DNA of 49,006 nt from Streptomyces durocortorensis (GTDB taxonomy: Bacteria; Actinomycetota; Actinomycetes; Streptomycetales; Streptomycetaceae), in contig NZ_JAFEUF010000026.1 of the NCBI RefSeq assembly GCF_016901035.1, positions 1 to 49,006 on the forward strand, written 5' to 3'. Below the pieces are notes generated by a model that saw only the letters and a list, made by a program, of their open reading frames with translations, made no database searches and was not told the DNA's origin. The first letter of the stretch is position 1, and every line of letters starts with the position of its first letter. This document shows, piece after piece, positions 10,098-49,006 of the stretch. The position numbers and the translations under genes are program-made.

Positions 10098-10110
10098 TAC
10101 GTTCATGCCA
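10098..10110 (+). promoter_or_regulatory. Leaderless promoter of tetR-1
   Basis: The -10 hexamer TACGTT (10098-10103) lies 6 nt before the ATG at 10110, with no ribosome site, so transcription probably starts at the A of the start codon. The paralogous tetR-2 has the same arrangement with TACGTT 7 nt before its ATG. Confidence 0.5.
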
Positions 10111-10928
10111 TGTCCCAGCCCGCCAAGTCACCCCGTGCCACCGCCGCGACCGACGCCCCGGAGACCACCACCGCGGGAACCCGCGCCGCCGCCCAACGGC
10201 TCAAGATGCGCCGCGAACTGGCCGCCGCGGCGATGGAGCTCTTCGCCACGAAGGGCTACGAGGCGACGACCGTCGACGAGATCGCGGGCGCCGCGGGCGT
10301 GGCCCGCCGGACCTTCTTCCGCCACTTCCGCTCCAAGGAAGAGGCCATCTTCCCGGACCACGACGACACCCTCGTCAGGGCCGAGGCCGTCCTGAACGCC
10401 GCCCCCGCGCACGAGCACCCGCTCGACACCGTCTGCCGCGGCATCAAGGAAGTCATGAAGATGTACGCGGCCAAGCCCGCCGTCTCCGTGGCCCGCTACA
10501 AACTGACCCGCGAGGTGCCCACCCTCCGGGAGGCCGAGATCGCGTCGGTGGCCCGCTACGAGCGGCTGTTCACCCGCTATCTCCTGGGTCACTTCGACGA
10601 GCGCGACCACCATGTGGGCAACGACGACCCGCTGCTCGCGGAGGTCGCCGCGTCCGCCGTGGTCACCGCGCACAACCATGTGCTGCGCCGCTGGCTGCGG
10701 GCGGGCGGCCAGGGCGATGTGGAGGCCCAGCTCGACCGGGCCTTCGCCATCGTGCGCGACACCTTCGGCACGGGCATCGGGGCCGGCCGGACCGCGGGGG
10801 CCGAGCCCGAGCGGGCCCCGGCGGCGTCGGTGGCGGCGGACGGCGAGGTGCTCGTCGCCGTGGCGCGTACCGACGCCCCGCTGGACGAGGTCATGCGGAC
10901 GATCCAGCAGGCGCTGAAGGACCGCTGA
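10110..10928 (+). CDS. TetR/AcrR family regulator (TetR-1)
   Basis: A 272-residue TetR-family regulator. The helix-turn-helix spans about residues 30-75: LFATKGYEATTVDEIAGAAG, then VARRTFFRHFRSKEEAIFP. The C-terminal half is all-helical with RYKLTREVPTLREAE, a stretch closely matched in TetR-2 at 48065-48808, as is the tail EVLVAVARTDAPLDEVM. The two are therefore paralogues with a shared ligand-domain type. The gene sits between hbd and the ccr operon, and acyl-CoA metabolites are plausible ligands. From memory, a TetR repressor called AccR controls short-chain acyl-CoA genes in S. avermitilis; orthology cannot be checked here. An in-frame ATG at 10092 is an alternative start but would precede the predicted transcription start. 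Confidence 0.92.
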   Translation: MSQPAKSPRATAATDAPETTTAGTRAAAQRLKMRRELAAAAMELFATKGYEATTVDEIAGAAGVARRTFFRHFRSKEEAIFPDHDDTLVRAEAVLNAAPAHEHPLDTVCRGIKEVMKMYAAKPAVSVARYKLTREVPTLREAEIASVARYERLFTRYLLGHFDERDHHVGNDDPLLAEVAASAVVTAHNHVLRRWLRAGGQGDVEAQLDRAFAIVRDTFGTGIGAGRTAGAEPERAPAASVAADGEVLVAVARTDAPLDEVMRTIQQALKDR

Positions 10929-11881: not shown

Positions 11882-11923
11882 GGCACTGGGTGCCTTGTCA
11901 GGTGTCACGGAGTGCCATACGTT
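11882..11923 (+). promoter_or_regulatory. ccr operon promoter with double 13-bp operator
   Basis: The order is operator 1 GGCACTGGGTGCC (11882-11894), -35 TTGTCA (11895-11900), operator 2 GTCACGGAGTGCC (11904-11916), -10 TACGTT (11918-11923); the -35 to -10 spacer is exactly 17 bp. Operators lie 22 bp apart start to start, two helical turns. The same layout occurs before etfB and the DUF35 gene. A bound repressor would occlude both hexamers. The expected transcript has a leader of about 220 nt, which includes a small GCCCTG/CAGGGC hairpin at 12094-12109. Promoter hexamers are inferred; the repeats are directly visible. Confidence 0.75.
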
Positions 11924-12152: not shown

Positions 12153-13490
12153 GTGAAGGAAATCCTGGACGCGATTCAGTCGCAGGACAGCACCGCCGCG
12201 GACTTCGCGGCCCTGTCCCTCCCCGAGTCCTACCGCGCGATCACCGTGCACAAGGACGAGGCGGAGATGTTCGCGGGCCTCGAATCCCGCGACAAGGACC
12301 CCCGTAAGTCGATCCACCTCGACGACGTCCCGGTCCCCGAACTCGGCCCCGGCGAGGCCCTCGTCGCCGTGATGGCCAGCTCGGTGAACTACAACTCCGT
12401 CTGGACGTCGATCTTCGAGCCGGTCTCGACGTTCGGCTTCCTGGAGCGGTACGGGAGGCTCAGCGAGCTGACCAAGCGCCATGACCTGCCGTACCACGTC
12501 ATCGGGTCGGACCTGGCGGGCGTCGTCCTGCGTACCGGTCCCGGTGTGAACGCCTGGAACCCGGGCGACGAGGTCGTCGCGCACTGCCTGAGCGTGGAGC
12601 TGGAGTCGAGCGACGGCCACAACGACACGATGCTCGACCCCGAGCAGCGCATCTGGGGCTTCGAGACCAACTTCGGCGGCCTGGCGGAGATCGCCCTCGT
12701 CAAGTCCAACCAGCTGATGCCCAAGCCGAAGCACCTCAGCTGGGAGGAGGCAGCCGCCCCGGGCCTGGTCAACTCGACCGCGTACCGCCAGCTCGTCTCG
12801 CGCAACGGCGCCGGCATGAAGCAGGGCGACAACGTCCTGATCTGGGGAGCCAGCGGCGGACTCGGCTCCTACGCCACCCAGTTCGCGCTGGCCGGCGGCG
12901 CCAACCCGATCTGTGTCGTCTCCTCCCCCGAGAAGGCCGAGATCTGCCGGAAGATGGGCGCCGAGGCGGTCATCGACCGCAACGCCGAGGGCTACAAGTT
13001 CTGGAAGGACGAGCGCACCCAGGACCCGAAGGAGTGGAAGCGCTTCGGCAAGCGCATCCGCGAGTTCACCGGCGGCGAGGACATCGACATCGTCTTCGAG
13101 CACCCCGGCCGCGAGACCTTCGGCGCCTCGGTCTACGTCACCCGCAAGGGCGGCACGATCACCACCTGCGCCTCCACCTCGGGCTACATGCACGAGTACG
13201 ACAACCGCTACCTGTGGATGTCCCTCAAGCGCATCATCGGCTCCCACTTCGCCAACTACCGCGAGGCCTGGGAGGCCAACCGCCTCATCGCCAAGGGCAA
13301 GATCCACCCGACGCTCTCCAAGACGTACTCCCTGGAGGACACCGGGCAGGCGGCCTACGACGTCCACCGCAACCTCCACCAGGGCAAGGTCGGCGTCCTC
13401 GCCCTCGCCCCCCGCGAGGGTCTGGGCGTCCGCGACCAGGAAATGCGCGAGCAGCACATCGACGCCATCAACCGCTTCCGCAACGTCTGA
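12153..13490 (+). CDS. ccr: Crotonyl-CoA carboxylase/reductase
   Basis: Catalyses NADPH-dependent reductive carboxylation of crotonyl-CoA with CO2 to (2S)-ethylmalonyl-CoA, the signature step of the ethylmalonyl-CoA pathway and a source of the extender unit ethylmalonyl-CoA for polyketides. The 445 residues form a medium-chain reductase fold: a GroES-like N-terminal part (SSVNYNSVWTSIFEPVSTF, typical of CCR), nucleotide loop WGASGGLGSYATQFALAGGA, and IDIVFEHPGRETFGASVYV. Length and motifs are those of true CCRs rather than short quinone reductases. GTG 12153 is selected for GGAGG 7 nt upstream. It is first in the five-gene operon ccr-ecm-mcl-mch-mcd. Confidence 0.97.
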   Translation: MKEILDAIQSQDSTAADFAALSLPESYRAITVHKDEAEMFAGLESRDKDPRKSIHLDDVPVPELGPGEALVAVMASSVNYNSVWTSIFEPVSTFGFLERYGRLSELTKRHDLPYHVIGSDLAGVVLRTGPGVNAWNPGDEVVAHCLSVELESSDGHNDTMLDPEQRIWGFETNFGGLAEIALVKSNQLMPKPKHLSWEEAAAPGLVNSTAYRQLVSRNGAGMKQGDNVLIWGASGGLGSYATQFALAGGANPICVVSSPEKAEICRKMGAEAVIDRNAEGYKFWKDERTQDPKEWKRFGKRIREFTGGEDIDIVFEHPGRETFGASVYVTRKGGTITTCASTSGYMHEYDNRYLWMSLKRIIGSHFANYREAWEANRLIAKGKIHPTLSKTYSLEDTGQAAYDVHRNLHQGKVGVLALAPREGLGVRDQEMREQHIDAINRFRNV

Positions 13491-17038: not shown

Positions 17039-18244
17039 ATGACGCGACTCGCCCAGACAGCCGGTCTGAACGACATCCAGCGGGAAATCCTTTCCACGGT
17101 CCGGGATTTCGTCGACAAGGAGATCATTCCGGTCGCGACCCAGCTGGAGCACCGCGACGAGTACCCCACGGAAATCGTCGAGGGGCTCAAGGAACTCGGC
17201 CTGTTCGGGCTGATGATCCCCGAGGAGTACGGGGGTCTGGGTGAGTCGCTGCTCACCTACGCGCTGTGCGTGGAGGAGATCGCGCGCGGCTGGATGAGCG
17301 TGTCGGGCATCATCAACACGCATTTCATCGTGGCCTACATGCTCAAGCAGCACGGTACGCAGGAGCAGAAGGACACGTTCCTGCCGCGGATGGCCCTCGG
17401 CGAGGTGCGCGGCGCGTTCTCGATGTCCGAGCCGGCGCTCGGCTCGGACGTCTCGGCGATCTCGTCCAAGGGCGTGAAGGACGGCGACGAATACGTCCTC
17501 AACGGCCAGAAGATGTGGCTGACGAACGGCGGAACGTCTACTTTGGTGGCTGTTCTGGCCCGAAGTGACGAAGGCCACCCCGAGGGCACCGCACCGCACA
17601 AGTCGATGACGACCTTCCTGGTGGAGAAGGAGCCCGGCTTCGGAGAGGTCCGGCCCGGCCTGACCATCCCCGGGAAGATCGACAAGATGGGCTACAAGGG
17701 CGTCGACACGACCGAGCTCATCATGGACGACCTGCGCATTCCGGCCAATCGCGTCCTCGGCGGCACGACCGGCCGAGGGTTTTACCAAATGATGGATGGC
17801 GTCGAAGTCGGCCGGGTGAATGTCGCCGCGCGTGGCTGCGGTGTCGCGCAGCGTGCATTCGAACTGGGCGTTTCGTACGCCCAGCAGCGCCACACCTTCG
17901 GCAAGCCGATCGCCCAGCACCAGGCGATCCAGTTCAAATTGGCCGAAATGGCCACCAAGGTCGAGGCCGCCCATGCGATGATGGTCAATGCAGCACGCAA
18001 AAAGGACTCCGGGGAGCGCAACGACCTGGAGGCAGGGATGGCGAAGTACCTCGCCTCCGAGTACTGCAAGGAAGTCGTCGAGGACGCCTTCCGCATCCAC
18101 GGCGGCTACGGCTTCTCCAAGGAGTACGAGATCGAGCGCCTCTACCGCGAGGCGCCGATGCTGCTGATCGGTGAAGGTACCGCCGAGATCCAGAAAATGA
18201 TCATTGGCCGGCGACTCCTGGAGGAGTACCGATTCCAGGGCTGA
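17039..18244 (+). CDS. mcd: Methylsuccinyl-CoA dehydrogenase (acyl-CoA dehydrogenase family)
   Basis: FAD-dependent dehydrogenase expected to oxidise (2S)-methylsuccinyl-CoA to mesaconyl-CoA, passing electrons to ETF. The 401 residues have all three acyl-CoA dehydrogenase parts: N-terminal helices (LFGLMIPEEYGGLGESL), middle beta-domain FAD motif AFSMSEPALGSDVSAI and MWLTNGG, and C-terminal bundle with RHTFGKPIAQHQAIQFKLAEM and IHGGYGFSKEYEIERLYREA. It is shorter than the roughly 550-residue proteobacterial Mcd, as expected for the actinobacterial type. CAGGAGAAG precedes the ATG after a 49-nt gap from mch. Its electron acceptor ETF is encoded at the far end of this window under what appears to be the same operator. 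Confidence 0.93.
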   Translation: MTRLAQTAGLNDIQREILSTVRDFVDKEIIPVATQLEHRDEYPTEIVEGLKELGLFGLMIPEEYGGLGESLLTYALCVEEIARGWMSVSGIINTHFIVAYMLKQHGTQEQKDTFLPRMALGEVRGAFSMSEPALGSDVSAISSKGVKDGDEYVLNGQKMWLTNGGTSTLVAVLARSDEGHPEGTAPHKSMTTFLVEKEPGFGEVRPGLTIPGKIDKMGYKGVDTTELIMDDLRIPANRVLGGTTGRGFYQMMDGVEVGRVNVAARGCGVAQRAFELGVSYAQQRHTFGKPIAQHQAIQFKLAEMATKVEAAHAMMVNAARKKDSGERNDLEAGMAKYLASEYCKEVVEDAFRIHGGYGFSKEYEIERLYREAPMLLIGEGTAEIQKMIIGRRLLEEYRFQG

Positions 18245-47570: not shown

Positions 47571-47954
47571 TCAGATCCAGTCCCGCCGTGCGGGCGGCTC
47601 GCAGAGTTCCAGCACCACCGCGCCCGTCTCCGGCTCGTCCCCGGAGACGGGCCGGACGCGTGCGCCGACCGTCACCAGATGCGGGGCGGCGCCCACGATC
47701 TGGCAGCGGAAGACGAATCCTTCGGGGAACCGCACCAGGGACTCGTTGCGTGCCGCCTCGGTGTAGCGGTGGACCACGGCGGTCCGGACGACCACGCCGT
47801 GGTCGGTGGTGCGTTCGGGCTCCAGTTCGCTGGACGCGCACACCGGACACAGCAGCCGCCGGAAGGAGGCGGTGCCGCACCAGCGGCAGCGGTGATAGGA
47901 GAGGCCGCACTCCTCGTGCGCCTTCTGGATGGTGCCCATTCCTGTCTGGGACAC
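47571..47954 (-). CDS. Zn-ribbon OB-fold protein (DUF35 family)
   Basis: A 127-residue two-domain protein. The rubredoxin-like Zn ribbon at residues 15-42 has two CXXC pairs (RCRWCG and CPVCAS), followed by an OB-fold (TTDHGVVVRTAVVHRYTEA, PEGFVFRCQIVG, VRPVSGDEPETGAVVLELCE). DUF35 proteins typically partner thiolases or lipid-transfer SCP2-type thiolases in acyl-CoA conversions; no thiolase gene is adjacent in this window. The start is GTG 47954 or ATG 47939; neither has a strong site. Its promoter carries the double operator shared with ccr and etfB, which ties it to acyl-CoA metabolism. Confidence 0.85.
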   Translation of the reverse strand: MSQTGMGTIQKAHEECGLSYHRCRWCGTASFRRLLCPVCASSELEPERTTDHGVVVRTAVVHRYTEAARNESLVRFPEGFVFRCQIVGAAPHLVTVGARVRPVSGDEPETGAVVLELCEPPARRDWI

Positions 47955-48012: not shown

Positions 48013-48055
48013 ACCATATGGCACTGAGTGCCGACCCGTAAAGGCACTGAGTGCC
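48013..48055 (-). promoter_or_regulatory. DUF35-gene promoter with double 13-bp operator
   Basis: Reading the minus strand: operator GGCACTCAGTGCC (48055-48043), -35 TTTACG (48042-48037), an identical operator (48032-48020), then -10 TATGGT (48018-48013). The spacer is 18 bp. Both operators are near-perfect palindromes and are the closest to the consensus in the window. It starts 10 bases after the tetR-2 stop codon. Confidence 0.75.
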
Positions 48056-48064
48056 CATTGATAC

Positions 48065-48808
48065 TCAGCTCTCGCCGACGGCCGCCTCGATCTGCTGCAC
48101 GACGCGCCACATCGGGGCGCCCTTCCGCGCGACCATCACGATCACCTCCCCGTCCCCCTCCCCTTCCACCCCGTGGGAGACGGGGAAGGGAACGGCGGGT
48201 GCGGGAGCGACGGACCGCCCCCACACCTCGCGCACCAGAGCGAGCGCATGGTCGACGGCTGCCTCGGGATCGCCCGCCCCGCCCGAACGCAGCCACAGCC
48301 GCAGCCCGTTGTTGTGCGCGGCGACCACGGACGCGGCGATCACCTCCGCCCGCAACTCTCCGTCACCGTCCTCGCCGAACCGGCCCCGCAGATGGCCGGC
48401 GAGGGTCTGTTCGTAGCGGCGCACCACGGACAGCTCGTACGTCCGCAGCCCCGGCACCTCCCGGGTGAGCCGATAGCGCTGCACGGAGAACTCGGGGTTT
48501 GCCGCGTACATCCGCAGCACGATGCGCGCGGCGTCGCACACCGCGCCGACCGGGTCACCGCCGTCGTCGGCGGCCAGGAACTCGGTCATCTCGGCGAGGC
48601 AGCGCTCATGGTCCGGGAAGACCGCGTCCTCCTTGGACGGGAAGTAGCGGAAGAACGAACGCCGGCCCACTCCGGCCCGCGCCACGATGTCGTCGACGGT
48701 CGTCCGCTCGAAGCCCCGCTCCAGGAAGAGCTGGAAGGCCGCCTGCGCGAGCACCTCCCGCATGGGCGCCTTCTTCTCGGGCTTCTCGGGTCCTCGTGCC
48801 TCGCTCAT
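48065..48808 (-). CDS. TetR/AcrR family regulator (TetR-2)
   Basis: A 247-residue TetR regulator, divergent from etfB. The HTH is AAFQLFLERGFERTTVDDIV with ARAGVGRRSFFRYFPSKEDAVF. The ligand half has RYRLTREVPGLRTYELSVVRRYEQ, matching TetR-1 at 10110-10928 position by position over long stretches. ATG 48808 lies 7 nt after a -10-like TACGTT (48821-48816) with no ribosome site, so it is probably leaderless. The shared operator module lies on both sides: its -35 region overlaps operator 48841-48853 and the DUF35 module follows its stop. It is the best candidate for binding GGCACTGAGTGCC and repressing itself, etfB, the DUF35 gene and ccr. Confidence 0.92.
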   Translation of the reverse strand: MSEARGPEKPEKKAPMREVLAQAAFQLFLERGFERTTVDDIVARAGVGRRSFFRYFPSKEDAVFPDHERCLAEMTEFLAADDGGDPVGAVCDAARIVLRMYAANPEFSVQRYRLTREVPGLRTYELSVVRRYEQTLAGHLRGRFGEDGDGELRAEVIAASVVAAHNNGLRLWLRSGGAGDPEAAVDHALALVREVWGRSVAPAPAVPFPVSHGVEGEGDGEVIVMVARKGAPMWRVVQQIEAAVGES

Positions 48809-48840
48809 GCGGCGAAACGTAGCACCGGAAGGAGGGTTTT

Positions 48841-48882
48841 GGCACTGGGTACCTTTACAGAGGGTACTGAGTGCCATAATCT
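48841..48882 (+). promoter_or_regulatory. etfB promoter with double 13-bp operator (tetR-2 divergent region)
   Basis: Operator 1 GGCACTGGGTACC (48841-48853), -35 TTTACA (48854-48859), operator 2 GGTACTGAGTGCC (48863-48875), -10 TAATCT (48877-48882); spacer 17 bp. All internal distances equal those of the ccr promoter. The two operators are also inverted repeats of each other (12 of 14 outer bases). A CACCCAGGT direct repeat (48901-48909, 48917-48925) lies in the leader. Confidence 0.78.
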
Positions 48883-48941
48883 CTCCATCAGTACGAATGA
48901 CACCCAGGTGGGACCACACCCAGGTAGGCAGGAGAGCCGGC

Positions 48942-49006
48942 GTGAGCTTGAGGATCGTTGTCTGTGTGAAGTACGTGCCCGACGCGACCGGTGACCGGCG
49001 TTTCGC
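48942..49006 (+). CDS. etfB: Electron transfer flavoprotein beta subunit, 5' fragment
   Basis: The window ends after 21 codons. They read VSLRIVVCVKYVPDATGDRRF, the conserved EtfB start (IVVCVKYVPD). GTG 48942 is preceded by GGCAGGAGAGCC. EtfB with EtfA accepts electrons from acyl-CoA dehydrogenases, including the class encoded by mcd. etfA is expected just outside the window. Confidence 0.9.
   Translation, partial: MSLRIVVCVKYVPDATGDRRF

Follow-up and report, generated by a model that had tools for sequence, protein, structure and literature searches.

The window analysed was the whole of contig C196 (49,006 bases) from the Streptomyces durocortorensis assembly, which comprises 7.96 Mb in 616 contigs. 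At the right-hand end of the window the TetR-family regulator gene tetR-2 is divergent to the start of an etfB gene, etfB-2, with a small Zn-ribbon gene behind tetR-2. The same contig carries ccr and a paralogue of tetR-2, designated tetR-1. Putative promoter modules, each consisting of two 13-bp operators arranged around a predicted -35 and -10 box, were located at etfB-2, at ccr and between tetR-2 and the Zn-ribbon gene. The features are as follows, in the order of the contig.

10110–10928, plus strand: tetR-1, tetR-2 paralogue (approximately 46% identical), likely regulator of ccr
11882–11923, plus strand: ccr module; operator 1 at 11882–11894 and operator 2 at 11904–11916; seen in 30/30 loci read
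11895–11923, plus strand: remainder of the ccr module by sequence; predicted -35 TTGTCA (11895–11900), GGT, operator 2 GTCACGGAGTGCC, A, predicted -10 TACGTT (11918–11923)
12153–13490, plus strand: ccr, crotonyl-CoA carboxylase/reductase; TIGR01751 639 bits (cut-off 378.6)
17039–18244, plus strand: gene of the acyl-CoA dehydrogenase family, within the ccr run; putative mcd, from its position
47571–47954, minus strand: small Zn-ribbon (zf-ChsH2-like) protein, 127 amino acids
48013–48055, minus strand: third module; operators at 48055–48043 and 48032–48020; gaps of 0, 4 and 1 nt; predicted -35 TTTACG, GGTC between the -35 and the second operator, then A and predicted -10 TATGGT
48065–48808, minus strand: tetR-2, 247 amino acids, TetR_N and TetR_C_14 (MftR C-terminal domain)
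48816–48821, minus strand: predicted tetR-2 -10, TACGTT, 7 nt before the ATG
48841–48853, plus strand: operator 1 of the etfB-2 module, GGCACTGGGTACC; conserved across tetR-2 loci; overlaps the predicted tetR-2 -35
48854–48859, plus strand: predicted etfB-2 -35, TTTACA; gap of 0 after operator 1; conserved in the alignment, missed by a strict consensus scan
48863–48875, plus strand: operator 2 of the etfB-2 module, GGTACTGAGTGCC; 3-nt gap (GAG) after the -35; inside the -35/-10 spacer
48877–48882, plus strand: predicted etfB-2 -10, TAATCT; 1-nt gap (A) after operator 2; TANNNT conserved
48942–49006, plus strand: etfB-2, first 65 bases, running to the contig end

The original prediction had been that the divergent etfB/tetR-2 promoter copies the spacing of the ccr module. 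The coordinates were rechecked and this was confirmed: both modules have gaps of 0, 3 and 1 nt. The two modules agree at 31 of 42 bases, and in both the spacer between the boxes is 17 nt and the operators lie 22 bp apart centre to centre. A strict sigma-70 scan found no promoter in either module region, each -10 box having only three of the six TATAAT bases; the support for these predicted boxes is their conservation. Across the tetR-2 loci the operators, TTTACA and TANNNT were mostly constant and the bases 5' of operator 1 varied. The alignments support the module at etfB as a real, conserved element of the putative TetR operator/promoter type.

Chance test and genome searches

The window was scanned for pairs of operators matching the consensus GGYACTNAGTRCC at 23 or more of 26 positions with a gap of 7–12 nt. 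One strand was scored, the consensus being a near-palindrome. Three pairs were found in the window and none in 300 dinucleotide-preserving shuffles. A sequence-only model (R1) was built from 44 modules and used to search the approximately 8 Mb genome of the strain itself. Only three strong places were returned, at etfB-2 (match 48839–48883, E = 9.7e-13), ccr (E = 1.0e-12) and the Zn-ribbon gene (E = 2.1e-9), the next best match having an E value of 0.67. The first two matches arise partly by construction, because the training rows include the strain's own ccr module (L087) and the etfB module of a relative that is letter-identical to its own (L033); the Zn-ribbon module was absent from the training rows. 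A chance origin of the module was ruled out by the shuffles (0/300) together with the genome search. Single GGYACTNRGTRCC sites gave 17 matches in the genome on both strands, compared with nine for a backward control pattern, and at the seven such places outside the window no partner site was seen by eye in the flanks.

R1 matched at E ≤ 0.001 in 77 of 81 Streptomyces genomes. In an order-wide draw (E of 1e-4) matches were obtained in 81 of the 84 genomes of the same genus and in none of the 15 genomes from four other genera. An R1 match lay beside tetR-2 in 41 of the 48 genomes with TetR-2 (in front of the gene in 15 and behind it in 40). Seven genomes with TetR-2 had no R1 module beside it (G004, G015, G025, G041, G076, G045 and G055); in the first five of these a second etfB lies tail to tail with tetR-2, and other operator pairs were seen in G004, G015 and G041. 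Nine R1 matches were found elsewhere: two at the Zn-ribbon gene (G027 and G043), six weak ones and one in G076.

The tetR-2 and Zn-ribbon promoters

A scan of genome contigs with TetR-2 yielded 54 loci. The operator pair on the etfB side was present with an exact 9-nt gap in 46 of these and with a 10-nt gap in four (L051, L076, L080 and L082). It was absent from the remaining four (L054, L084, L085 and L086); the promoters of L084 and L085 were out of view because only the last 29 residues matched, and L086 encodes a distant Actinomadura protein. EtfB is divergent to tetR-2 in related loci. In all 29 whole-genome loci tetR-2 was flanked by an operator pair on one side or both. In L132, L133, L138 and L144 the sole pair is behind tetR-2, with none upstream. 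The L125 and L131 loci were cut and their positions shifted; operator pairs were present in both.

The sequence TACGTT was found 6–7 nt before the tetR-2 ATG in 33 of 38 related loci, with TAGGTT or TACCTT in four more; the tetR-2 -10 region was not shown by the remaining one. From the position of this predicted -10, 7 nt from the ATG (48808–48821), the tetR-2 message is probably leaderless. The best -35 candidate, GTGCCA (48840–48845), is 18 nt from the -10 and falls in operator 1, so that an overlap of this operator with the tetR-2 -35 is plausible. Autoregulation of tetR-2, which had also been proposed at the outset, is upheld by this arrangement and by the presence of an upstream operator pair in 25 of the 29 whole-genome loci. 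The anatomy of the locus gives good support to both putative activities of TetR-2, on its own gene and on etfB.

The third module sits between the tetR-2 stop codon and the Zn-ribbon gene and is predicted to drive the latter, downstream of tetR-2. The encoded protein scored 22 bits with Pfam zf-ChsH2, slightly below the cut-off of 23.2, and a search of NCBIfam gave no match. An operator pair scoring at least 23/26 was present on this side in 50 of the 53 related loci scanned, most with a gap of 10 nt; L086 was left out of the scan, L070 and L079 had lower scores and L076 was too short. The Zn-ribbon gene was found in 48 of the 81 genomes, with TetR-2 also present in 46 of them. The constant partner of TetR-2 is the Zn-ribbon gene, not etfB. 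In two genomes (G027, locus L275, and G043, locus L276) the Zn-ribbon gene and its module are kept and no TetR-2 was found in the genome.

Assignment of repressors to sites

TetR-2 (at least 60% identity) was found in 48 of the 81 genomes and TetR-1 in 78. The 76 genomes with both TetR-1 and ccr have the two on the same contig in 75 cases and within 10 kb of each other in 74. The ccr module was present in 77 of the 79 Streptomyces genomes having ccr, and in the two without a match (G008 and G050) the gene is at the edge of its contig. With a 9-nt operator gap it was found in all 30 loci read, the strain's own included. Among the 33 genomes without TetR-2, 29 retain the ccr module, which makes 29/29 of the testable ones: G010 and G037 have no close ccr, and in two more the gene is at the edge of its contig. 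The ccr module is thus not dependent on TetR-2. TetR-1 is present in G010 and G037, the two genomes with no close ccr. One draft genome (G073, approximately 1140 contigs) has the ccr module, and searches of it for TetR-1 and TetR-2 found neither; with ccr at base 568 of its contig, a tetR-1 next to it may have been missed. In the present window ccr and tetR-2 are on one contig, 37 kb apart; in G057 and G069 they are approximately 6 Mb apart.

The proposal that TetR-2 sets the level of ccr/mcd is not supported by these comparisons, given the 29 genomes that keep the ccr module without TetR-2 and the proximity of TetR-1 to ccr in 74 of 76 genomes. By gene position, TetR-1 is the likely regulator of ccr.

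The operators of the two classes were compared base by base. At position 6 of operator 2 the ccr sites have G (29 of 30) and the etfB sites T (47 of 47); at position 3, C was found in 30 of 30 ccr sites versus T in 42 of 47 etfB sites, the 47 etfB rows including L051, which was forced to a 9-nt gap and adds one odd operator 1 row. The recognition helix reads AGVARRTFFRHF in 30 of 30 TetR-1 loci and AGVGRRSFFRYF in 30 of 30 TetR-2 loci (78 and 48 were found, respectively), only three of the 12 residues being different; neither the operator nor the helix counts are independent, because the genomes are related. Taken with the occurrence data, these differences suggest that the ccr and etfB-2 promoters are read by a pair of sister repressors and not by a single protein. 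The Zn-ribbon modules of G027 and G043, genomes in which no TetR-2 was found, raise the possibility that TetR-1 recognizes sites of either class.

The second etfBA copy

The assembly breaks within etfB-2 because the main etfBA copy has the same sequence. The last 77 bases of the window (48930–49006) are also the end of contig C180, and contig C569 carries the rest of etfB together with etfA. C180 and C569 match the flanks of the main etfBA copy in the near relative G066, and the window end matches the tetR-2-linked etfBA copy of G066; the etfB at the window end therefore belongs to a second etfBA (etfBA-2). The remainder of etfBA-2 was searched for in the strain's own assembly and was not found; by analogy with the relatives, we infer that it is intact in the S. 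durocortorensis strain. In S. griseus NCTC 13033 (L039), which has this locus as well, both etfB and etfA are intact.

No operator pair was found at the main etfBA copy in 25 evaluable loci (one of 26, L191, was left out as it is cut by a contig end); in the same set the pair was present at four of four tetR-2-linked copies. As the main copy is without the module, the cell has ETF that is independent of the etfB-2 promoter.

The two etfB copies were compared in ten genomes (20 sequences; loci L207–L226). In nine of the genomes 0 to 13 of the 783 positions differ between the copies (98–100% identity), and in the tenth, G004, 127 do. The main etfB copies of different genomes are 79–95% identical. 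Bases 20–300 upstream of the two etfBA copies align at only 45–51%. A tree built from the 20 etfB sequences groups the two copies of a genome as sisters in all ten cases. In G052 and G065 etfB is near identical between the copies and etfA is approximately 85% identical, a contrast that suggests conversion tracts. Gene conversion is the likely origin, and the simplest reading, of near-identical etfBA copies with unrelated promoters; the age of the promoter module makes repeated new duplications into one and the same position less probable. A search of the open-access literature found no work joining etfB, Streptomyces and gene conversion.

Acyl-CoA dehydrogenases pass their electrons to ETF. 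In two genomes of another clade (G004 and G015; loci L225 and L240) etfB-2 and etfA-2 are preceded by an acyl-CoA dehydrogenase gene; an operator pair lies immediately 5' of the dehydrogenase start, and tetR-2 and the Zn-ribbon gene face this run. Its dehydrogenase shares only 35% identity with the one encoded in the ccr run, and the two genes are therefore not the same. In these two genomes a dehydrogenase and its ETF acceptor seem to be placed under a common regulator of the TetR-2 type. The original idea of one repressor for dehydrogenase and acceptor is thus supported in kind, for the dehydrogenase–etfB-2–etfA-2 order, and not supported for TetR-2 acting on ccr and mcd.

Comparison with known systems

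Both regulators were compared with family models. TetR_N (Pfam PF00440; cut-off 24 bits) matched TetR-2 with 58 bits and TetR-1 with 60 bits. TetR_C_14 (cut-off 22.7 bits) matched TetR-2 with 37.5 bits; TetR-1 scored 19.5 bits, below the cut-off. The best NCBIfam model for both was TIGR03968 (MftR), with 92.5 bits for TetR-2 and 91.3 bits for TetR-1; its cut-off of 224.9 bits was not reached by either. The predicted palindromic operators lie over the regulated promoters and the regulator's own promoter, as in the TetR family.

The mycobacterial mycofactocin regulator MftR binds a 27-bp operator containing GGCA-N5-TGCC, has long-chain acyl-CoAs as effectors and requires H68 for oleoyl-CoA binding (PMC8728441). 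The GGCA-N5-TGCC frame is followed by GGCACTGAGTGCC at 48020 and 48043 and by GGCACTGGGTGCC at 11882; both etfB operators and operator 2 of ccr deviate from it. TetR-2 shares with MftR the TetR_N and TetR_C_14 domains, a 13-bp operator frame and a link to acyl-CoA metabolism (PMC8728441). The present system differs in that the predicted targets are ccr, etfBA-2 and the Zn-ribbon gene, and in that tandem operators are wrapped round the core promoter. In an alignment, from which the numbering match was deduced, the TetR-2 residue corresponding to MftR H68 appears to be a cysteine, and the ligand may therefore differ from that of MftR. Assignment of the ligand by analogy with MftR was set aside, since this key histidine seems to be changed in TetR-2.

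CcrR of Methylobacterium extorquens AM1 is, by its cited title, reportedly a TetR-family protein that activates an ethylmalonyl-CoA pathway gene. Insofar as the title describes it, the present system resembles CcrR in combining a TetR-family regulator with an ethylmalonyl-CoA pathway gene. It differs from the reported activator in that the sites overlap the predicted core promoter, which suggests repression.

In a study of Streptomyces regulators, TetR genes are divergent to enzyme operons and share an operator region with them (PMC3511530); tetR-2 is likewise divergent to an enzyme operon with a common operator region. The main text of that study contains no 'electron transfer', 'crotonyl', SCO1082 or SCO647x. 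Among the matches listed, the titles and abstract starts of open-licence PubMed Central articles included no TetR regulator of Streptomyces ccr or etfB, and the four operator words turned up in that literature in a single, unrelated article. SCO6473/SCO1082 occur there in one article, on GlnR. In S. tsukubaensis, ccr1 of the emc operon was below quantification in a glucose/dextrin medium (PMC4606968), which fits a repressed promoter. The present locus stands out by its unusually regular operator layout and by its duplicated target.

Proposed mechanism and alternatives

The reading that we prefer, and consider probable, is a repressor-operated promoter, with TetR-2 acting at its own, the etfBA-2 and the Zn-ribbon promoters and with ccr read mainly by TetR-1. 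From the observed layout, conservation, number of sites, co-occurrence, paralogy and etfBA duplication we infer binding, repression, a ligand and the assignment of paralogues to sites. Two dimers of an MftR-like TetR repressor would occupy the tandem 13-bp palindromes, two helical turns apart. One dimer would abut the -35 and the other would fill the -35/-10 spacer, so that RNA polymerase would be excluded. A ligand, probably an acyl-CoA, would free the repressor and the promoter would open. TetR-2 would thus repress its own gene, the divergent etfBA-2 and the Zn-ribbon gene behind it, and TetR-1, encoded next to ccr, would mainly read the ccr module.

The common 13-bp frame and the near-identical spacing at the three sites speak for an alternative in which each module is recognized by TetR-1 as well as by TetR-2; one regulon with overlapping repressors would then comprise etfBA-2 and the ccr operon. 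The small difference between the recognition helices (three of 12 residues) and the Zn-ribbon modules retained without TetR-2 in G027 and G043 point the same way. The class-specific bases at operator positions 3 and 6 argue against such a shared regulon, as does the indifference of the ccr module to the presence of TetR-2, and we regard it as unlikely. That TetR-2 alone sets both ccr/mcd and etfB is very unlikely: the genomes without TetR-2 that keep the ccr module (29) and the position of TetR-1 adjoining ccr weigh against it, and the linkage of ccr to tetR-2, which together with the identical spacing at ccr and etfB-2 and the textbook role of ETF in accepting electrons from acyl-CoA dehydrogenases would speak for it, is not general (G057 and G069). 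An activating TetR protein, for which there is a precedent in the title describing CcrR of M. extorquens as a TetR-family activator, is scarcely credible here, as proteins bound at an operator 2 that fills the spacer and an operator 1 that abuts the -35 would be expected to block polymerase and not to recruit it.

With repression by two paralogues as the preferred reading, a broader picture may be drawn tentatively, although the odds are somewhat against it as a whole. One copy of a duplicated ETF operon would be placed under an acyl-CoA-sensing repressor with operators matching the ones found at the ethylmalonyl-CoA pathway; the coding copies would be kept identical by gene conversion over distances of as much as approximately 7 Mb, their promoters remaining unrelated; and two paralogous repressors with overlapping recognition would link an inducible additional dose of ETF to carbon flux through ccr. 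The conserved operator and the adjoining candidate repressor offer a direct handle on this control. A regulated second ETF provides a clear test of whether the dose of electron acceptor matches acyl-CoA dehydrogenation, and the near-identical copies behind different promoters would provide a naturally occurring example of gene conversion that maintains the coding part alone.

A further site pair, GGCACNNNGTGCC-like and with 9-nt spacing, was observed in six genomes (L277–L282) upstream of an aceE-like gene beside a GntR gene. The R1 matches on the aceE side are weak (E values of 2e-5 to 7.5e-4), and the aceE and GntR names were read from the translations.
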